Source: Ferrimonas kyonanensis DSM 18153 (GTDB lineage: Bacteria; Pseudomonadota; Gammaproteobacteria; Enterobacterales; Shewanellaceae). Taken from it: a stretch of DNA of 64,000 bases. Position numbers and translations under genes: made by a program. Of this stretch, positions 1 to 9,437 are shown one piece after another (positions within the stretch are counted from its first letter, which is position 1; each line of letters starts with the position of its first letter). The stretch lies in contig NZ_AUDJ01000014.1 of NCBI RefSeq assembly GCF_000425405.1, forward strand, positions 124,001-188,000, in the 5' to 3' direction. Under the pieces are notes generated by a model that was not told the DNA's origin, did no database searches, and saw only the letters and a list, made by a program, of their open reading frames with translations.

Positions 1-1
1 C

Positions 2-1162
2 CTGCTCTATTGGAGTAATCAGAAGTGGGGACTGTTGTTAACCGCCGCCTTGATGGTGACGGCGTTGGCGCTCACCTTGTACTGGCCGCTGTTGCTGGGG
101 GCGGCGGTTGCCATGCTGGCGCTGGTCGCATTGCACCATTGGCGACCGGAGATTGCCCGTGGCCAGGGACGGGAGAATGGCCTAAGGGATTGGGTGCATC
201 ACTCGATGTCCTTGGCGATGGTGTTGGTGGGCATCCAGTATGTGCTGTATTACAGTTTGCTGGGCCAGGGAGTGGAAACCGGATTGGGACGACCGGATGT
301 GGTGGATGCGTTTTTGCCGATTGCCGGTGGCATCGAATTGAAAGCCATCATCATGTTGAACCTGTGGGACCAAAACCACCCAGCTGCGGCTGTTATGCTG
401 ACCTCAGTATTATTAAGTGGATTGATTTGTAAGCGCGCATTCTGCGGTTGGATCTGTCCTTTAGGTCTGGCTGGTAAATATTTGTACGATTTGAGGGTGC
501 GTTTTATTAAGGGCGCTTATTTGGCTCCAAAATGGTTGGATTGGCCATTAAGAATGCTGAAATACCTTTTATTATTGGGGTTGTTTTACATCGTAATTGG
601 TATGCCAGCGGAATCTTTGCCCTATTATCTCGATGGCAACTATCAAAAGATAGCCGACCTTAAAATGGGACTGTTTTTTGCTAATCCCAGTGTGCTCGCT
701 CTGGTGGTCATTGCTGTGATTCTGGGGCTGGCGGCTTGGCAACAGCAGGCATTTTGTCGCTACCTGTGTCCCTACGGTGCACTGTTGGGGCTGCTGAGCT
801 TCCTCAGCCCGTTTAAGGTGCGACGGGACACCAACCACTGCCTGATTCAGTCCCGAGGGATGAAGTGCGATAAGTGCACTCGCGCTTGCCCTGCGCGAAT
901 CCAGGTGCATACCGAGAGCACCGTACGTTCCGATGAGTGTCAGGCTTGCATGCGCTGCGTGGCGGCCTGTCCTAAGAAAGAGGCGCTGCAGGTGTCGACT
1001 CGCTGGGGGCAGACCCTGTCGGCTCGAGGGGTGCTGATCATCCTGTTGTTGCTGATGTTTGCAGTGCCATTGGTGGCCTATGTCGGCGGCTTCTGGCATA
1101 GCCAGGTCAGTGATGCCACCCGCATTGAGTTAATGAAATACATCCATCAGATAGGCCACTGA
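2..1162 (+). CDS. 4Fe-4S polyferredoxin membrane protein, NapH/NosR-C-terminal type (5' end missing)
   Basis: The frame is open to the left edge, so the gene starts outside the window and the visible TTG at 35 is not a real start. The product is a multi-pass inner-membrane protein. It carries the two paired-Cys membrane motifs typical of NapH/NosR-like electron carriers, CGWICPLG and CRYLCPYG, followed by a soluble segment with two ferredoxin-type clusters (CDKCTRACP and CQACMRCVAACP) and a last membrane helix. Such proteins pass electrons between the quinone pool and a periplasmic or cytoplasmic partner. The partner here is unknown. It lies just upstream of the coo hydrogenase operon but is separated from it by a terminator. 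The stretch around 395-620 is visibly A/T-richer than the flanks. It could be an accessory electron conduit for CO oxidation or an unrelated NosR/NapH relative. Confidence 0.8.
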   Translation: MLYWSNQKWGLLLTAALMVTALALTLYWPLLLGAAVAMLALVALHHWRPEIARGQGRENGLRDWVHHSMSLAMVLVGIQYVLYYSLLGQGVETGLGRPDVVDAFLPIAGGIELKAIIMLNLWDQNHPAAAVMLTSVLLSGLICKRAFCGWICPLGLAGKYLYDLRVRFIKGAYLAPKWLDWPLRMLKYLLLLGLFYIVIGMPAESLPYYLDGNYQKIADLKMGLFFANPSVLALVVIAVILGLAAWQQQAFCRYLCPYGALLGLLSFLSPFKVRRDTNHCLIQSRGMKCDKCTRACPARIQVHTESTVRSDECQACMRCVAACPKKEALQVSTRWGQTLSARGVLIILLLLMFAVPLVAYVGGFWHSQVSDATRIELMKYIHQIGH

Positions 1163-1204: not shown

Positions 1205-1238
1205 GCCTGAGTCCCTGTGAAGGGGCTCAGGCTTTTTT
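1205..1238 (+). terminator. Rho-independent terminator after the polyferredoxin gene
   Basis: An 11-bp stem (GCCTGAGTCCC / GGGGCTCAGGC, one G-T pair) is followed by six T. It separates the upstream gene from the coo operon, which therefore needs its own promoter. Confidence 0.85.
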
Positions 1239-1313: not shown

Positions 1314-1329
1314 TGTCGGCTCGCTGACA
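1314..1329 (+). promoter_or_regulatory. CooA operator upstream of cooM
   Basis: The sequence TGTCGGCTCGCTGACA reads TGTCA-N6-CGACA on the minus strand, which is the CooA operator described for R. rubrum coo promoters. Its centre (1321.5) is 70 bp before the chosen cooM start. An activator centred near -41.5 would place the transcript start around 1363, about 29 nt before cooM. The implied -10 (GACACT, 1351-1356) is poor, as expected for an activator-dependent promoter. A CooA-like protein is encoded at the end of the same gene cluster. The assignment is by motif only. Confidence 0.75.
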
Positions 1330-1391
1330 GAAATCCCCTTCACCATACCGGACACTGCCCCTATGGCACTGTTGCTTGGATGAGGATTGCT

Positions 1392-4300
1392 ATGGGTGAG
1401 TTATCGGTGTGGGCCTGGGGAGGGGCCGCGCTGTTATTAATCGGAGAGTTATGGGCCTGGTTGCATTATCGCAATCTGGGGAAGTTGCTGCTGTTTTCCA
1501 CCGTCGCCGAGATGGGGTATCTGGGATTGGGCTTGGGCCTGGACACCACCCTGGGGGAGACCGGTGCCTGGTTCCACCTGTCGCTGCAGGTGGTGATGCG
1601 ACTGCTGGTGATCGTGGCGGCCTGGCGGTTGATTCGTCGCGCCGGAAGTGCCGATCTGACCGAGGTGGCCAAGGTGGCGCCGCAGTTACCCCTGACCCGA
1701 TTGATGTTGGGCTTTGGGTTGTTTTCTGTCATGGGGCTGTCGCCATTTAAAGGGGCATTCAGCAAGTTCATTATTTTGTATTCGGCGGTGGATCTGGGGC
1801 ACTGGGCTCTGGCCCTGACGGCGACGCTGGCCAGCGTGGTGGCGGCGGTGTACACCATCACGGTGATTCAGGCTCTGTGCTTTGGACCCCAGGCGGACGG
1901 TCAGCGCTGGCGAGAGTGGGCGTTTGGCAGTCGCTCCTGGTTGCTGATGGTGTCACTGGCGGCGATGACGGTGCTGCTGAGCCTGGATCCCGAGCCTTTG
2001 CTGCACGGGATTGGCCAGTACCTGGGGCTGACGGCGGCCGATGGCCTGCCGACGTTTGAAACCCCCTGGCACCCCTTGGTGTTGCTGCCCTACCTAAGTG
2101 GTTTTGGTCTCTACGTGTTTGGCCATTTCAGTCACCGGTTGCGAAACTGGCTGGCCCAGGGGGTGGCGGCGATGACCCTGGTACTGGTGTGGAATCAAAC
2201 CGATCTTGATGGCTTATCCTGGTTGTTTGCGGTGCTGTTTGCCCTGGTGATGCTGATGGTGGTGGTGTACTCCGCCGCCTACATGAAGCAGCAGGCTCAC
2301 AGCAATCGCTACTACTTTTTCCTGATGCTGATGCTGGGATCATTGCTCGGGGTGGCCACCGCCGACAACCTGGGCAACTTTTACCTGTTCTGGGAGTTGA
2401 TGACCTGGACGTCGTATCTGTTGGTGATCCACCCACAGAGCGATTCTGCCTTGCGTGCCGGTAGAAAGTACTTCCTGATGTGCGCCAGCGGGGCCTATGT
2501 GATGCATTTTGGCATCCTGTTGCTGCACGCCCAGATCGGCAGCTTTGAGTTTGCGGCGATCTCGGCCGGAGTCGCGCAGCTGTCACCGATGGTGGCCTGG
2601 GTGGCCCTGGGCTGCTTTATGCTGGGACTGGGGGTGAAAGCCGGCCTGTGGCCGCTGCACAGTTGGCTGCCCGATGCCCACCCGGTGGCCCCGTCTTCGA
2701 TTTCGGCACCGATGTCGGCGATTCTCACCAAGGCGGGCCTGTTTGGCTTGCTGAAACTGGGCATGATGGTGTTTGGCACCGCGACCCTGATGGAGATGGG
2801 ACGAGTCGGTGACTGGAGTGTGTTCGGTCTGCTGCTGAGCCTGCTGGGGGTCATTACCCTGTTGTATGGCGAAATCATGGCGCTCAGGCAGGACAACCTG
2901 AAACGGATGCTGGCTTATTCAACCCTGGCTCAGGTGGGGGAGATTGCCGCCATCCTCGGCCTGGGAACGTATCTGAGCCTGGTGGGGGGATTGGCGCATC
3001 TGGCCAATCATGCCCTGTTTAAAAGCCTGCTGTTCTTGGCCGCCGGCGCCTTTATCTACCGTACCGGCAGTAAGCGGTTGTCGGATCTGGCGGGAGTGGC
3101 CCGGCAGATGCCGGTGACCGGCCTGTGCATGGCGGTGGGCTTGCTGGCGATCATGGGGCTGCCGCCGTTTAGTGGCTTCTTCAGTAAGTTCATGATGCTG
3201 TATGCCGCTGTCGCCGCCGGGCAACTGCTGTTGCCGGCGACGATCCTGCTGGGCAGCGTCATCGGTGCCATCTACTATCTGCGCCTGTTTCGCGTGCTGT
3301 ATTTCCAGCCGGGCAGGGTCCGAGTGAACGAGGCTCCGGCCTCGATGCTACTGGCCCTGGTGGGGCTGGCGAGTTTGGTGCTGCTGGGAGGCCTGTTTCC
3401 GGACGCGGTGGTGAACTGGGTTCGTCCGGCGGCGGCGCTGCTGGCGCCTGAACCAGGCACCATCAGTGTGCCGACGCTCACCATGGCCTGGCCGCTGAGT
3501 GCCCTGTTGGCCTGTGGTGGAGCCATCGTGGTGTATCTGATGGGCCGCTGGCAACTGCCCGGCAGCCGCTGGGCGGCCCTGGGAGTGATGGCCTTGGCGC
3601 TGGCCGGAGTGTTGCTGGAGTCTCAGCGCTACGATCTGCTGTCCTGGTGGTTTGCGATATTGATTGCCGCCATGGGGGTGGCAAACCTGTGTTACGCCAA
3701 GGGCTACATGGCCCACAGCCACAGCCCGCACCGATTCAGCTTCTTTTTCCTGATGATGATCGGCGGCCTGCTGGGGGTGACCGCCAGCGAGGATCTGTTT
3801 AACTTCTTTGCTTTCTGGGAGCTGATGAGCAGCTGGACGCTGTATTTCGTCATCATTCACGAGGAGAGCGAAGAGGCCCTGGGCGAAGGCTTCAAATATT
3901 TCCTGTTTAACCTGGTTGGGGCCAGTGCCCTGTTCCTGGGCGTGGTAATGCTGACCGCCTACAGCGGTTCATTCAGCTTCGCGGCGCTCCAGGCCGCCAC
4001 TGCCTTCATGCCGGTCTCCTGGCTGGCGCTGGCGTTGGTGTTGGTGATGGCCGGGCTGTTGATGAAAGCGGCCCAGTTGCCGCTGCGCATCGATGTACAG
4101 ATGCACCCGCCGACGGCGCCGACGCCGGTCAGTGGTTACATCTCGGCGGTATTGCTGAAAAGTGGCCCTTATGGGGTACTGAAGTTCATCGCAGCGTTGG
4201 GAGTGACCACGCTCACCGCCCGTTTGGGTGGCATTGCCGAATTGCCCTGGCTGACGTATGCCGTGGCGGTGATTGCGGCGGTAACCCTGCTCTATGCCGG

Positions 4301-5165
4301 GGCTATGGCCATGATTCAAACCGGGATAAAGCGGCTGCTGATCTACAGCACCGTCAGTCAACTGGCGTACGTTTTGCTGGGCATCGCCCTGATGTCGCCC
4401 CTGGGACTGGCGGGGGGCCTAATGCACTTCGTTAACCACATGCTATTAAAAAACATGTTGTTTATGGCTGCTGGAGTGATTTTGGCACAGGCCCACCTGG
4501 AGAGCTTGGACGAACTGGGTGGCCTGGGGCGACGAATGCCGGTGACTTTCGGCGTGTTCCTGTTCGCCGGCCTGTCCCTGTCTGGCGTACCGCCGCTGAA
4601 TGGATTCGCGTCGAAATGGCTGATCTATCAGGCCAGTTTCGAGTCCGGGCATTACCTGCTGGGTCTGGCGGCACTGATGTCGAGCCTGTTTACCCTGGCG
4701 GCGGTATTGAAGTTTGCCCATGTGGCCTTTATGGGCCAGCTCAACCCCAAGGTGGCCCACCTTAAGGAGGCGGACTGGTCCATGCGCCTGCCGATGCTGG
4801 TGCTGATGGTGGTGAGTCTGATCATCGGTGCGTTTCCCGGCATGGTGCTGGTGCCGGTGGCGGCGGTCATCGACTCCCTGGGGATGGCAAGCATCAGCGT
4901 CAGCTGGTTTGGCGGTCTGCCGGGCAATGGCGGCTGGCATCCAGCCACCCTGACGCTGGCAATGGCGCTGTTGGCCTGGGGCTGTTGGGGCTTCTATCGC
5001 CTCAGTAACCCTGTGCGGCAGCGGGTGCATTTGCACGCCTGCGGGGTTGAGGACATCGATGCCGCACAGGCTCACCTGCCGGCCTCCAGCCTGTATGAGT
5101 CCCCCAAGGCGCTGATCCGCGCCATCACACGAACCAAACCATCTCAAGGAGTGAACCATGAGTGA
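1392..5165 (+). CDS. cooM: CO-induced hydrogenase membrane subunit CooM (fused antiporter-like modules)
   Basis: About 1257 residues and almost entirely membrane helices. It is the proton-pumping arm of a group 4 energy-converting hydrogenase, related to NuoL/M/N, HycC and Mrp antiporter subunits. The start at 1392 is chosen because GAGGA lies 5 nt upstream; the ATG at 1380 has no ribosome site. Three segments are visible. Residues about 1-180 resemble only the C-terminal half of an antiporter module. Residues about 270-690 form a complete module with the FWEL glutamate (E335) and the K-x-WPLHSWLPDAHPVAPS motif. Residues about 750-1170 form a second complete module with E810 and a diverged HPPTAPTPVSGY motif. 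The size (~135 kDa) matches R. rubrum CooM. Its stop overlaps cooK. No separate NuoK/HyfE-like gene is present. Confidence 0.9.
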   Translation: MGELSVWAWGGAALLLIGELWAWLHYRNLGKLLLFSTVAEMGYLGLGLGLDTTLGETGAWFHLSLQVVMRLLVIVAAWRLIRRAGSADLTEVAKVAPQLPLTRLMLGFGLFSVMGLSPFKGAFSKFIILYSAVDLGHWALALTATLASVVAAVYTITVIQALCFGPQADGQRWREWAFGSRSWLLMVSLAAMTVLLSLDPEPLLHGIGQYLGLTAADGLPTFETPWHPLVLLPYLSGFGLYVFGHFSHRLRNWLAQGVAAMTLVLVWNQTDLDGLSWLFAVLFALVMLMVVVYSAAYMKQQAHSNRYYFFLMLMLGSLLGVATADNLGNFYLFWELMTWTSYLLVIHPQSDSALRAGRKYFLMCASGAYVMHFGILLLHAQIGSFEFAAISAGVAQLSPMVAWVALGCFMLGLGVKAGLWPLHSWLPDAHPVAPSSISAPMSAILTKAGLFGLLKLGMMVFGTATLMEMGRVGDWSVFGLLLSLLGVITLLYGEIMALRQDNLKRMLAYSTLAQVGEIAAILGLGTYLSLVGGLAHLANHALFKSLLFLAAGAFIYRTGSKRLSDLAGVARQMPVTGLCMAVGLLAIMGLPPFSGFFSKFMMLYAAVAAGQLLLPATILLGSVIGAIYYLRLFRVLYFQPGRVRVNEAPASMLLALVGLASLVLLGGLFPDAVVNWVRPAAALLAPEPGTISVPTLTMAWPLSALLACGGAIVVYLMGRWQLPGSRWAALGVMALALAGVLLESQRYDLLSWWFAILIAAMGVANLCYAKGYMAHSHSPHRFSFFFLMMIGGLLGVTASEDLFNFFAFWELMSSWTLYFVIIHEESEEALGEGFKYFLFNLVGASALFLGVVMLTAYSGSFSFAALQAATAFMPVSWLALALVLVMAGLLMKAAQLPLRIDVQMHPPTAPTPVSGYISAVLLKSGPYGVLKFIAALGVTTLTARLGGIAELPWLTYAVAVIAAVTLLYAGAMAMIQTGIKRLLIYSTVSQLAYVLLGIALMSPLGLAGGLMHFVNHMLLKNMLFMAAGVILAQAHLESLDELGGLGRRMPVTFGVFLFAGLSLSGVPPLNGFASKWLIYQASFESGHYLLGLAALMSSLFTLAAVLKFAHVAFMGQLNPKVAHLKEADWSMRLPMLVLMVVSLIIGAFPGMVLVPVAAVIDSLGMASISVSWFGGLPGNGGWHPATLTLAMALLAWGCWGFYRLSNPVRQRVHLHACGVEDIDAAQAHLPASSLYESPKALIRAITRTKPSQGVNHE

Positions 5166-6117
5166 GTTGTTGGCCTTGTTGTCACCCCTGTGGGTGCTGC
5201 CATTAGGGATGGGCGCCTTGTTCGTCGGGCTGCTGTTCAAGGGGGTAGACCGGATTGTGGTGGCGCGCCTGCAGCGCCGCATCGGTCCGCCGCTGCTGCA
5301 GCCTTTTTATGACATTGCCAAGTTGATGCAAAAGCGATCCATGGTACCGGAACCGGCGATGACCGGGTTGTTCCTGTACCTGCCGGCGGCCGGCGTCTGC
5401 GCCATGATGGTAGCCGTCGCCCTGGTGCCCATTCCCGGCATGTATCAGCCGCCGCAGGCGCTGGGGGATTTGCTGGTGTTGCTGTATCTGCTGGCGGTGC
5501 CAGCCATCGTCATCATGTTGGCCGGCTCCGCCTCCGGCTCGACCTTCGGTGCCATCGGCTTCTCCCGTGAGATGTCGTTGATGCTGGCGTACGAAGGTCC
5601 GTTGCTGTTGGTGCTGATCAGCGTGGCCATTCGTACCGGTGCGGGTCTGGGGGAGCCGATCAGCCTGTCGCTGAATGAGGTGGTGGCCTGGCAACAGGGC
5701 CACGGCGCCTTCATTACCGACCCATTGATGTGGCCAGCCCTGCTGGCGTTTCTGAGCGTGATACCGGCCAACCTGGGGGTGGCCCCGTTCGACATTCCTG
5801 AGGCGGAGTCGGAGATTCTCGAAGGGCCGCTGCTGGAGTATTCCGGCCCGGCGTTGGCAATGTTCAAGCTGATGTCGACCCTCAAGACCATGCTGGTGCT
5901 GAGCCTGGGGGTAGTGATGTTCTGGCCTTCCGTAGGGGAGGGGCTGTGGCCGCTGTTGACGCACCTGCTCAAATGCCTGGGCCTGTTTCTGCTGGCCAAG
6001 ACCGCGCTGCGGGCGTCGGTGGGAAGAATGCGGATGGATCAGGCGTTTATTTTCTATTTCAAATGGCCGGAGCTGCTTGGGGTGCTGAGTTTGATTCTGG
6101 TGGTGGCCACCGTATGA
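5158..6117 (+). CDS. cooK: CO-induced hydrogenase membrane subunit CooK (NuoH/HycD family)
   Basis: A 319-residue, multi-helix membrane protein of the complex I NuoH family that links the hydrogenase peripheral arm to the antiporter subunit. The typical first cytoplasmic loop (RRIGPPLLQPFYDIAKL) and the acidic APFDIPEAESEILEGP segment facing the module interface are present. The start overlaps the end of cooM by 8 nt and has an AGGAG ribosome site, so translation is probably coupled. It is shorter than NuoH and similar in size to HycD, HyfC and R. rubrum CooK. Confidence 0.9.
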   Translation: MSELLALLSPLWVLPLGMGALFVGLLFKGVDRIVVARLQRRIGPPLLQPFYDIAKLMQKRSMVPEPAMTGLFLYLPAAGVCAMMVAVALVPIPGMYQPPQALGDLLVLLYLLAVPAIVIMLAGSASGSTFGAIGFSREMSLMLAYEGPLLLVLISVAIRTGAGLGEPISLSLNEVVAWQQGHGAFITDPLMWPALLAFLSVIPANLGVAPFDIPEAESEILEGPLLEYSGPALAMFKLMSTLKTMLVLSLGVVMFWPSVGEGLWPLLTHLLKCLGLFLLAKTALRASVGRMRMDQAFIFYFKWPELLGVLSLILVVATV

Positions 6118-6130
6118 GTGAGAGGTATCT

Positions 6131-6559
6131 ATGAAACTGTTTTCCAACACGGCGGTGCGCTCACCCTGGTTGTACCGCATCAACGCCGGTTCCTGCAACG
6201 GCTGCGACGTGGAGCTGGCGACCACCGCCTGCATTCCCCGTTACGACGTGGAGCGTCTCGGGTGTCAGTATTGCGGCAGTCCCAAGCACGCCGACATTGT
6301 ACTGATCACCGGGCCGTTGACCGCCCGGGTTAAAGACAAGGTTTTGCGGGTGTACGCCGAAATTCCTGACCCCAAGGTCACGGTGGCGGTGGGGATCTGT
6401 CCCATCTCAGGAGGGGTGTTCCGGGACAGCTATGCCATTGAAGGGCCAATCGATCGCTATTTCGATGTCGACGTCAATGTGCCCGGCTGCCCGCCGCGAC
6501 CGCAGGCGATCATCGAAGGCATTGCCCAGGCGATTGAAATCTGGAAAACCCGGCTGTAG
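6131..6559 (+). CDS. cooL: CO-induced hydrogenase small subunit CooL (NuoB/HycG family)
   Basis: 142 residues. It is the small electron-transfer subunit that holds the [4Fe-4S] cluster next to the [NiFe] site, equivalent to NuoB. The cysteine ligands lie in GSCNGCDVEL, GICPISGGVF and PGCPPRP, as expected for the N2-like proximal cluster. There is no signal peptide, so the enzyme faces the cytoplasm. A GAGAGG ribosome site precedes the start, which is 13 nt after cooK. The length matches the short NuoB-like subunits of group 4 hydrogenases. Confidence 0.9.
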   Translation: MKLFSNTAVRSPWLYRINAGSCNGCDVELATTACIPRYDVERLGCQYCGSPKHADIVLITGPLTARVKDKVLRVYAEIPDPKVTVAVGICPISGGVFRDSYAIEGPIDRYFDVDVNVPGCPPRPQAIIEGIAQAIEIWKTRL

Positions 6560-6567
6560 GAGGTCCC

Positions 6568-7080
6568 ATGGGAATTGTAAAACTGCTGTTTCGAAATCTG
6601 CTCAAAGGGCCGTCTACGGATCCCTTTCCTTTCGGCGACACCTTTACGCCGAAGGCGCTGCGGGGCCGCATCGAGTTTGATGCCAGTCGCTGCACCGGCT
6701 GTCGCATGTGTGAGTACGTGTGTGCCGGTGGTGCCATCCGTTTTCAGGAAACCGATGCGGGCTTGAAGTTTCACCTGTGGCACAACAGCTGCGCCTTTTG
6801 TGGCCTGTGCGAGCACTACTGCGTACCCGGCGCCATTGAAATGACCCAGGACTGGCACCTGGCGCACCCGCAGCAGGAGAAGTACACCATGGTGGAGCAG
6901 GGGGTGGTGCGGCGCTTGCCTTGTGAGGGGTGCCAGACGGCGATGGTTCCTACCACCGAGCGCCTGATTGGCCGCGCGTATGCCGGTTCCAACGCCGCTA
7001 TTGAATCCCTGTCCCGCTTATGTCCGGACTGCCGCCGCCAACGCTCGGCTCGGCAGTTGACCAAAGGAGAATTGCTATGA
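6568..7080 (+). CDS. cooX: CO-induced hydrogenase ferredoxin subunit CooX (HycF/NuoI family)
   Basis: 170 residues with two [4Fe-4S] motifs: C42-x2-C45-x2-C48-x3-C52 and C75-x2-C78-x2-C81-x3-C85. It probably carries electrons from the CO dehydrogenase ferredoxin to CooL. Two further pairs, C119-x2-C122 and C152-x2-C155, sit in the C-terminal part. E. coli HycF has a comparable CxxC...CPEC tail, so they may bind a metal. The second cluster motif lacks the usual Pro after the last Cys and has Val-Pro instead. AGGAGG precedes the start, and the stop overlaps the cooU start as ATGA. Confidence 0.9.
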   Translation: MGIVKLLFRNLLKGPSTDPFPFGDTFTPKALRGRIEFDASRCTGCRMCEYVCAGGAIRFQETDAGLKFHLWHNSCAFCGLCEHYCVPGAIEMTQDWHLAHPQQEKYTMVEQGVVRRLPCEGCQTAMVPTTERLIGRAYAGSNAAIESLSRLCPDCRRQRSARQLTKGELL

Positions 7081-7601
7081 CCCCGATGTTTCAAAGTGTG
7101 GCTGCCAGCCTGGGCAACAGCCTGAGCCAACCGGCCGACTGGTCGCAGAGCACCAATGGCAAAGGCGTCACCGTGGCCTGGTGCCGACTGAGCGATGCGG
7201 CCCAGATCCTGCCGATGGCACGCCTGATCAAAGTACTGGATGGTCGCCTCAGTACCATTACCGCCTACCAGATTAAGCAGCAGCCTGACGGGCTGGAAAT
7301 TGCCTATCACTTCGATCTGGATGGCGACACGCTGACCGCCACCGTCACGGTGGACGCCGCGCCGCGCATCATTCCGTCGCTGACCGGCGTGTTTCGCAAT
7401 GCCGATTGGAATGAACGTGAGTTTATGGAGCTGTATCAAATCGAGGTGACCGGTCACCCGAACCCTCGGCGCCTGTTCATCGATGAAAACATCGACCCGG
7501 CGGTGCTGCAACGCTTCATTCCCTATTCCGATCTGGTTAATGCCGCCAGTACCAAGGCGTTGTGGGAAAAAATTATGATCACCAAGGGAGACACGCAATG
7601 A
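7077..7601 (+). CDS. cooU: CO-induced hydrogenase subunit CooU (NuoC, 30 kDa-subunit family)
   Basis: 174 residues, related to the complex I 30-kDa subunit. It includes the FRNADWNEREFMELYQI segment, which corresponds to the family signature W-x-ERE-x-x-(D/E)-x-(F/Y)-x-I. It is structural and packs against CooH in the peripheral arm. The start at 7077 overlaps the cooX stop (ATGA) and has AGGAGA 8-9 nt upstream; an in-frame codon at 7020 lacks such a site. In Hyc/Hyf systems this domain is fused to the large subunit, while here it is separate, as in R. rubrum. Confidence 0.88.
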   Translation: MTPMFQSVAASLGNSLSQPADWSQSTNGKGVTVAWCRLSDAAQILPMARLIKVLDGRLSTITAYQIKQQPDGLEIAYHFDLDGDTLTATVTVDAAPRIIPSLTGVFRNADWNEREFMELYQIEVTGHPNPRRLFIDENIDPAVLQRFIPYSDLVNAASTKALWEKIMITKGDTQ

Positions 7602-8680
7602 GCAGCTATAAGGTACCTGTGGGCCCTTTGCATGTGGCTCTGGAAGAGCCCATGTACTTCAAAGTCGAGGTGGAGGGGGAAACCATCAAGGGCATCGACA
7701 TCACCGCCGGCCATGTGCATCGAGGCCTGGAGTACCTGGCGGTAAAGCGAAACTTCTACCAGAACATTACCCTGACCGAACGCTTGTGTTCCCTGTGCTC
7801 CAACAGCCACCCGACCACTTATTGCATGGCCCTGGAAACCATCGGTGGCATTGAGGTGCCGCAGCGGGCCCAGTACCTGAGGGTGATCGCCGATGAGGTC
7901 AAGCGGGTGGCATCGAACCTGTTTAATGTGGGGATCATGGCCCACATCATCGGCTTTGATTCTCTGTTTATGCACGTGTTGGAAACCCGGGAGGTGATGC
8001 AGGACGTCAAAGAGACCGTGTACGGCAACCGCATGGATCTGGGCGCCAACTGCATCGGTGGGGTGAAATACAACCTGGATGCCGATAAGGTGGCATACCT
8101 GACCGAAAAGGTTCAGGGAATGATACCGGCGGTGGAGGAGATTAAGGCGCTGTACAACAGCGACCACTTCATCGTGTCGCGAACTCAGGGGGTTGGGGTG
8201 CTGACTCTGGAGGACGTCAAGGACTACGGCTTGGTGGGGCCGGTGGCGCGGGCGTCGGGTCTGGCGTACGACGTTCGGGTCCAGGCCAGTTACGCCATCT
8301 ACGATCAACTGGATATGGAGATTCAGACCCGCAGTGGCGGTGACGTATGGTCGCGGGCCATGGTGCGTATCGATGAGGTGCTGGTGGCGCTGGATCTGAT
8401 CTTGCAGTGCCTGGCCAAGCTGCCCCAGGGGCCCATTGCCATCACTACGTTGCCCAGCATTCCCGCCGGGGAAGCGATCGCAAAAAGTGAGGCACCCCGG
8501 GGAGAGTTAATTTATTATCTGCGCACCGATGGCAGTGACAAGCCGGAACGTCTCAAGTGGCGGGTACCCAGCTACCCCAACTGGGATGCATTGCAGACCA
8601 TGATGGCCGGGGAGAAGATCGCCGATGTGCCGTTGATGGTGAACAGCATCGATCCTTGCATTTCATGCACAGAGCGGTAG
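7598..8680 (+). CDS. cooH: CO-induced [NiFe] hydrogenase large subunit CooH
   Basis: 360 residues, catalytic subunit reducing protons to H2. Both Ni ligand motifs are intact: C64-x2-C67-x3-H71 near the N-terminus (RLCSLCSNSH) and DPC354-x2-C357-x2-R360 at the end, so this is a true hydrogenase and not a NuoD/Ehr relative lacking Ni. The protein stops exactly after the motif Arg. HycE-type large subunits continue past this Arg with a peptide removed by an endopeptidase; that peptide is absent here, as reported for R. rubrum CooH. The start overlaps the cooU stop (ATGA) with AGGGAG upstream. The maturation (hyp) genes are not in the window. Confidence 0.93.
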   Translation: MSSYKVPVGPLHVALEEPMYFKVEVEGETIKGIDITAGHVHRGLEYLAVKRNFYQNITLTERLCSLCSNSHPTTYCMALETIGGIEVPQRAQYLRVIADEVKRVASNLFNVGIMAHIIGFDSLFMHVLETREVMQDVKETVYGNRMDLGANCIGGVKYNLDADKVAYLTEKVQGMIPAVEEIKALYNSDHFIVSRTQGVGVLTLEDVKDYGLVGPVARASGLAYDVRVQASYAIYDQLDMEIQTRSGGDVWSRAMVRIDEVLVALDLILQCLAKLPQGPIAITTLPSIPAGEAIAKSEAPRGELIYYLRTDGSDKPERLKWRVPSYPNWDALQTMMAGEKIADVPLMVNSIDPCISCTER

Positions 8681-8765
8681 TGCCGGGGAGAGCGAAGCGG
8701 CTTGTCATCATCCAGCCATTCGGCTAGCGGCCAGGGCACATAGGGAAGAACACAGGAGCGCGGTG

Positions 8766-9437
8766 GTGCAATCAAAAATGAGACTGTCCAGGTTCAACAT
8801 GATTGAACTGTTAAAGGCGCCTCAATACAAAGGCTTTCTTTCCGGCTTTCAGGCGCGTCAGTTTGCCCGCGGCAACCTGGTGAGCTCGCCGGAGCAGCAA
8901 AGCAATGAGGTGTTTATCGTGGTGTCCGGGCGACTGCGGATCTTCCTTTCCTACGAGGGCAAGGAGTTTACTCTGTGCTTTCTGGAGCCGGGGGATCTGT
9001 TCAGTACCCATACCCGGGTGATGATTGAGGCCTGCAGAGAGGCGACCATCATGTCCATCAGCGTGGCGCGGTTTCGGGAGGAGGTGGTGCGCTTTCCTGA
9101 GGTGTCGCTGGTGATGACCGGCATTCTCGGTCAGGTGCTGGGCGGCACTCTGGATGTTATCGAGGGGATCATGTTCCACGATGTTCGTTACCGGTTAGTG
9201 GAGTTCTTGCTGTCGCTGGCGGACGAGCAGGGCAAGCACACGGAAACCGGCACCGAGTTTGGCTGCGACCTCAATATGGAGGAGATCTCCTTGTTGATCG
9301 GCACCACCAGACAAACCGCGTCGTCGCTGCTGAATACGCTGATCAAAGAGGGCCACCTGGTTCGGTTAGGCCGCGGCCGCTACCGAATGCCTGAGCCGCA
9401 AACGCTCAGGAGTCTGCTGGAAGGCGATGATATCTGA
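8766..9437 (+). CDS. cooA: CooA-like CO-sensing CRP/FNR family activator
   Basis: 223 residues: N-terminal cyclic-nucleotide-fold heme domain, long dimer helix (LGQVLGGTLDVIEGIMFHD) and a C-terminal helix-turn-helix with GTTRQTASSLLNTLIKEG, very close to R. rubrum CooA (SSRQTTSTALNSLIKEG). CooA binds heme, senses CO when reduced and then activates coo promoters. The ferrous heme ligand His is kept (GDLFSTHT, H82), but the neighbouring Cys that ligates ferric heme in R. rubrum (Cys75) is Ser80 here. GTG at 8766 is preferred (AGGAG 7 nt upstream); it gives an MQSKMRL N-terminus in the same register as the Carboxydothermus protein as I recall it. GTG 8763 and ATG 8778 are alternatives. It lies 85 nt after cooH on the same strand. 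Confidence 0.88.
   Translation: MQSKMRLSRFNMIELLKAPQYKGFLSGFQARQFARGNLVSSPEQQSNEVFIVVSGRLRIFLSYEGKEFTLCFLEPGDLFSTHTRVMIEACREATIMSISVARFREEVVRFPEVSLVMTGILGQVLGGTLDVIEGIMFHDVRYRLVEFLLSLADEQGKHTETGTEFGCDLNMEEISLLIGTTRQTASSLLNTLIKEGHLVRLGRGRYRMPEPQTLRSLLEGDDI

Follow-up and report, generated by a model that had tools for sequence, protein, structure and literature searches.

We identified a complete, standard CODH-ECH (water-gas-shift) module in Ferrimonas kyonanensis DSM 18153, a reading to which we assign a probability of about 0.9. The window, as we call the 64,000-nucleotide stretch of DNA analyzed here (contig C8:124001-188000 of a genome of 4.93 Mb in 40 contigs), contains the hydrogenase genes cooMKLXUH followed by the regulator gene cooA, and the CO dehydrogenase operon lies just to its left (Table 1). 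The genes, their order, the catalytic residues, the CooA boxes, and the phylogenetic placement all support this identification. By analogy with known systems, CO would induce the module, and its products would carry electrons from CO to protons, release H2, pump ions, and aid nickel loading.

Table 1. Features of the coo locus. Plain numbers are window positions; C8 numbers are contig positions.
Feature	Position	Strand	Description
CooA box upstream of hypA	C8:118759-118774		Begins 83 nt before hypA start
hypA	C8:118842-119180		Left of window
cooF	C8:119192-119770		Left of window
cooS	C8:119770-121680		Left of window
cooC	C8:121728-122525		Left of window
cooT-like gene	C8:122518-122730		Left of window; score below CooT family cutoff
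cooJ-position gene	C8:122723-122959		Left of window; 78 aa, no family match
hypB	C8:122989-123729		Left of window
NapH-like membrane polyferredoxin	1..1162	+	404 aa; start 53 nt left of window, L001:19948
Terminator-like hairpin	1205..1232	+	12 pairs, T-run; between NapH-like gene and cooM
CooA box TGTCGGCTCGCTGACA	1314..1329	.	Upstream of cooM, begins 66 nt before its start
cooM	1380..5165	+	Antiporter-like membrane subunit, 1261 aa, three Proton_antipo_M stretches
cooK	5158..6117	+	NuoH-like membrane subunit; Pfam NADHdh
cooL	6131..6559	+	NuoB-like Fe-S small subunit; Pfam Oxidored_q6
cooX	6568..7080	+	Ferredoxin-like subunit; Pfam Fer4 types
cooU	7077..7601	+	NuoC-like subunit; Pfam Complex1_30kDa
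cooH	7598..8680	+	[NiFe] catalytic subunit, 360 aa; Pfam Complex1_49kDa and NiFeSe_Hases
cooA	8766..9437	+	Crp-type heme CO sensor by homology; Pfam cNMP_binding and HTH_Crp_2

The hydrogenase operon

The original prediction of cooMKLXUH followed by a CooA-like regulator was borne out by the open reading frames, the gene order, and the Pfam families. All seven genes are open frames, each with the expected Pfam family, and the hydrogenase genes stand in the order M-K-L-X-U-H. NCBIfam matches of the seven genes were of the same kind as the Pfam matches, mostly below the curated cutoffs. The six hydrogenase genes had been described as overlapping, which is true of three of the five junctions, with an 8-nt overlap at M/K and ATGA overlaps at X/U and U/H, but K/L and L/X are separated by gaps of 13 nt and 8 nt. 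The module had also been said to begin at position 1392; cooM does lie there, but its start can be 1380.

CooH carries the motifs RLCSLCSNSH and, at the C terminus, DPCISCTER, so that both CxxC pairs are present and no tail follows. Among 83 full-length CooH rows, three of which are second copies of clusters already counted, the C terminus ended at CT[ED]R in every one, and the first CxxC motif was present in 82.

The CO dehydrogenase operon

A profile search of the genome located cooS 2.3 kb left of the window, where a nearby CO dehydrogenase had been expected from the hydrogenase genes. CooS scored 756 bits against a family cutoff of 478 and was the sole CODH above the cutoff in the genome, the second match reaching 23.6 bits. 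The Ni-CODH, CooF, and CooC genes are all linked to the hydrogenase genes. The best PDB match of CooS was the R. rubrum CODH 1jqk (925.6 bits, over a nearly full-length alignment). Using the offset from this alignment and presumed residue numbers, we found that all 14 checked cluster and catalytic positions were kept, among them the C-cluster ligands (one His and five Cys) and the Cys of the B and D clusters.

The CooA regulator

The most likely cooA start is the GTG at 8766, because the relatives begin with MQSKM. The four best PDB matches of the predicted protein were all CooA chains, three from C. hydrogenoformans (171.5, 168.9, and 113.5 bits) and one from R. rubrum (154.7 bits), followed by 4k8f, named only as Crp/Fnr family (77.3 bits), and by other Crp proteins from 48.4 bits down. 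CooA proteins are thus the nearest solved Crp/Fnr relatives, and the axial His (R. rubrum His77) is kept. R. rubrum CooA is reported to switch its ligand from Cys75 to His77 with redox state (PMC2652392). The R. rubrum-type ligands Cys75 and Pro2 are both absent here, the redox-switch Cys being replaced by Ser (GDLFSTHT) and the N terminus reading MQSKMRL. The C. hydrogenoformans CooA chain 2fmy keeps the Cys but shows no N-terminal Pro, and ligation by Cys75 and Pro2 therefore appears to be a species trait rather than one that defines the family.

The position of the redox-switch Cys held Ser or Thr in all 11 gammaproteobacterial coo clusters examined (10 Ser, 1 Thr). Eight of the 11 alphaproteobacterial loci with CooS had a CooA match, and the Cys was kept in seven of these. 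Of 42 Crp-type matches in total, 19 fell outside the motif and were left uncounted, including two Desulfovibrio proteins that adjoin CooS clusters. The Ser/Thr form thus appears uniform in the gammaproteobacterial clusters examined but not unique to them, since Ser is also found in L059, a Geobacteraceae cluster, and in L034, a Desulfovibrionaceae locus. From the substitution, we infer that CO sensing in this organism may be less tied to low redox potential.

CooA boxes

We searched for the CooA box with the consensus TGTCRN6YGACR, as quoted in PMC6085454, and found a box before each of the two target operons, upstream of cooM and of hypA. All five coo-bearing Ferrimonas genomes have the hypA box, and four of them also have the cooM box. 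The number of boxes in the window was not above chance, with two matches (one palindrome, read on both strands) against 1.10 expected, and 31 of 100 window shuffles reached two. The locus sequence L001 had four matches, a number reached in 2 of 200 shuffles; two of the four lie inside cytochrome genes and look like chance occurrences.

The signal is clear by position. An exact box occurred near cooM (from 450 nt before to 60 nt after the first CooM match) in 32 of 69 clusters, and all loci together had approximately 0.02 boxes per such stretch. The 69 are the clusters with a cooM start inside the locus that remained once three duplicate loci, and any loci lacking a usable cooM start, had been set aside. 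The box was present in 13 of the 22 clusters with CooS in the locus and in 19 of the 47 without it. Because so many clusters without CooS also carry one, the box marks CooH clusters in general and is no proof of a link to CODH.

Phylogeny of CooH

In a tree of 85 rows, the window CooH fell inside the CooH clade (80 rows, support of 100/98), and HycE, HyfG, and a plasmid Hyf-type protein were set apart from it (100/100). Gammaproteobacterial CooH rows formed one clade within the CooH group (100/98). Two plasmid rows and some others sat on long branches, and the tree was sampled without R. rubrum CooH, Ech, Mbh, and Ehr sequences. The expectation that the protein would group with CooH rather than with Hyf/Hyc or Ehr relatives therefore held against HycE and HyfG, in a tree that contained no Ehr. 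The protein also has no tail after the last CxxC and in neither respect resembles a Hyc/Hyf formate hydrogenlyase.

No plasmid copy of this type of CooH was found at an E-value limit of 1e-40, the relatives on 190 plasmid records all being below 60% identity, with 37 to 45% among the 20 matches listed. One of these relatives, on an Azospirillum oryzae plasmid (L107, 44.6% identity), belongs to a hydrogenase-like cluster of seven genes that lies downstream of a gene for an aldehyde ferredoxin oxidoreductase and is perhaps part of an aldehyde-driven hydrogenase.

Clusters of CooMKLXUH without CooS in the fetched locus, which extends at most 10 kb beyond cooH, made up 47 of the 69 counted and came from other proteobacteria (L033, L039, and L075 among them). 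Near the L033 cluster are an XdhC protein and a pyridine-nucleotide oxidoreductase that includes a 2Fe-2S domain. Two genomes have two CooH clusters each, Consotaella salsifontis (L060 and L065) and Pleomorphomonas carboxyditropha (L020 and L075); the two of P. carboxyditropha belong to different clades, and CooS is in the fetched locus of only one.

Distribution and transfer of the module

CooS is present in 5 of 14 Ferrimonas genomes and scored above the cutoff in 6 of 152 genomes of the same taxonomic family. Four of the five coo-bearing Ferrimonas genomes carry the module with a napC-mtr locus on one side and satP-feoAB on the other. In a sister species (G008), which lacks CooS, these flanks adjoin, approximately 0.3 kb separating napC from satP; we compared the junction of this empty site by blastn. 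Loss of the module from this genome is as possible as its original absence. The fifth genome, F. aestuarii, carries its module at another site, close to an ABC transporter and a type I restriction gene.

We built a concatenated tree from six proteins and 18 rows, taking the best single BLAST piece per protein, so that some rows are incomplete. In this tree, the module of the sole further coo-bearing genome of the family, from another genus (G092), grouped with Photobacterium (100/100) and not with Ferrimonas. The simplest reading of these sequences is that the module moved between gammaproteobacteria, probably as a unit of about 13 to 15 kb. Base composition was rejected as evidence of transfer: the G+C content gave no such signal, the module (58.6%) being close to both its left (57.7%) and right (56.4%) flanks.

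Proposed function and the fate of H2

In the mechanism that we propose, CO-bound CooA would activate the two operons through the box before each. CooS would oxidize CO to CO2 and pass the electrons through CooF and CooX/CooL to the [NiFe] site of CooH, where protons would be reduced to H2, and CooM and CooK would harness the redox energy to export ions. HypA, HypB, CooC, and CooT would aid nickel loading, and hypFCDE and a second hypB (on contig C7), found elsewhere in the genome, can complete maturation. The likely role of the module is proton respiration driven by CO under conditions where better electron acceptors run short.

The H2 may not leave the cell for good. The genome encodes an uptake-type [NiFe] hydrogenase with a small subunit, a b-type cytochrome, and a maturation protease (C6:223261-227253), and the hypFCDE genes lie beside it (to position 233808). 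This membrane-bound enzyme could recapture the H2 and feed its electrons into quinone, from which they would go to metal or other anaerobic acceptors, making CO a respiratory donor in effect. Such recapture would extend the main reading, not contradict it, and we consider it possible at somewhat less than an even chance. A full-length uptake hydrogenase large subunit and an MtrB/PioB homologue are each present in all 14 Ferrimonas genomes. However, because the uptake hydrogenase is equally present in the nine genomes without CooS, there is no co-occurrence signal for H2 recycling, and CO inhibits most hydrogenases, with the inhibition constants given in PMC4257681 ranging from 5.8 to 40 μM.

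Genes flanking the module

Left of the window, at L001:6071-14635, genes for an MtrB/PioB porin, a decaheme MtrA-like protein, two MtrC/OmcA-type decaheme cytochromes, and a NapC-type tetraheme cytochrome adjoin the coo module, the napC-type and mtr-type genes standing directly left of hypA. The NapH-like gene lies between hypB and cooM; the family matches of its product came from a 375-aa form. These neighbors suggest a route in which the electrons of CO would bypass the hydrogenase and pass from CooF to the NapH-like ferredoxin, the quinone pool, the NapC-type cytochrome, and the adjacent MtrCAB-like system. We regard this route as very unlikely. The NapH-like gene occupies that place only in this genome and in F. 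sediminum, two of the five coo-bearing Ferrimonas genomes. A terminator-like hairpin, which has the longest stem among 15 sites found (9.5 expected), stands between it and cooM, and a box scan of L001 found no exact CooA box before it. We therefore rejected the NapH-like protein as part of the module, and the gene is probably a bystander. The mtr neighborhood was likewise rejected as a functional partner, since mtr and coo occur independently: the sister species with the empty site has mtr-napC without coo, and in F. aestuarii (G001) mtr lies approximately 280 kb from coo on the same contig, with satP on another contig.

It is highly improbable that the hydrogenase makes H2 from reduced ferredoxin of other origin while the CODH serves CO detoxification only, for although many CooMKLXUH clusters have no CooS in the fetched locus, the CODH, CooF, and hydrogenase genes adjoin here and both operons have a CooA box.

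Comparison with known systems

The Ferrimonas group had been thought not usually to be associated with hydrogenogenic CO oxidation, a view that is out of date. Table 2 of Omae et al. 2019 (PMC6687684) lists CODH-ECH genomes of Ferrimonas futtsuensis, F. kyonanensis, and F. sediminum, together with Shewanella sp. M2 and R106, Photobacterium marinum, Citrobacter amalonaticus Y19, and eight Salmonella strains. The presence of the module in Ferrimonas is therefore already published in that genome survey. For F. futtsuensis, PMC8159138 presents this potential as based on genomic analysis only, and among the matches listed for the open-licence PMC literature, we found no experiments on Ferrimonas CODH/CooS, hydrogenase/CooH, or carbon monoxide/carboxydotrophy.

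Among named relatives, F. sediminum DSM 23317 is the nearest, with CooH 99%, CooS 97%, and CooM 95% identical. Gene order and neighbors are shared, including mtr-napC to the left of the module and satP-feoAB to its right, and sequence divergence is the only difference from the window genome. The two are presumably nearby but different strains or species.

The locus shares its gene set with the R. rubrum cooFSCTJ, cooMKLXUH, and CooA system as given in PMC4257681, and the CooA box consensus quoted in PMC6085454 is common to both. However, cooA follows cooH here, whereas it follows the CODH genes in R. rubrum (PMC4257681), and hypA and hypB frame the CODH genes, unlike in R. rubrum. The two CooA proteins differ in the Ser in place of Cys75 and in the missing Pro2. 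A Rubrivivax cooH mutant is reported to have lost CO-linked H2 production (PMC4257681).

Citrobacter amalonaticus Y19 is likewise a gammaproteobacterium with reported control by CooA, and its CO-dependent formation of H2 has been established by experiment (PMC5371261). The CODH and CO-hyd operons of Y19 diverge from one intergenic region with hypC first (PMC5371261), and a divergent layout is also found in Photobacterium, Enterobacterales loci, and G092. In contrast, both operons run in the same direction in the five coo-bearing Ferrimonas genomes. In a study of Anoxybacillaceae cultures (ISME J 2026, PMC13077300), CODH-ECH modules are argued to serve survival under acceptor limitation. A similar role for the Ferrimonas module would be a guess by analogy; regulation there is by predicted Rex (PMC13077300), as opposed to the CooA boxes here.

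Significance

The module may be a CO-fed front end of anaerobic respiration in metal-respiring Ferrimonas, in which CO would yield H2, the uptake hydrogenase would oxidize it again, and the electrons would leave through MtrCAB-type complexes, with a Cys-less CooA that would respond to CO at a higher redox potential than that of R. rubrum. We consider this extended proposal doubtful. If it is true, CO would sustain the reduction of Fe(III) or Mn(IV) in coastal sediment. The gain is modest, since the module is already published for the genus. As a natural variant, the Ferrimonas CooA could be used to examine the purpose of the cysteine in the R. rubrum protein. The five Ferrimonas genomes with CooS and the nine without it, one of which has the matching empty site, form a clean comparative set in which to examine the value of CO oxidation to a marine bacterium that is facultative and probably metal reducing.
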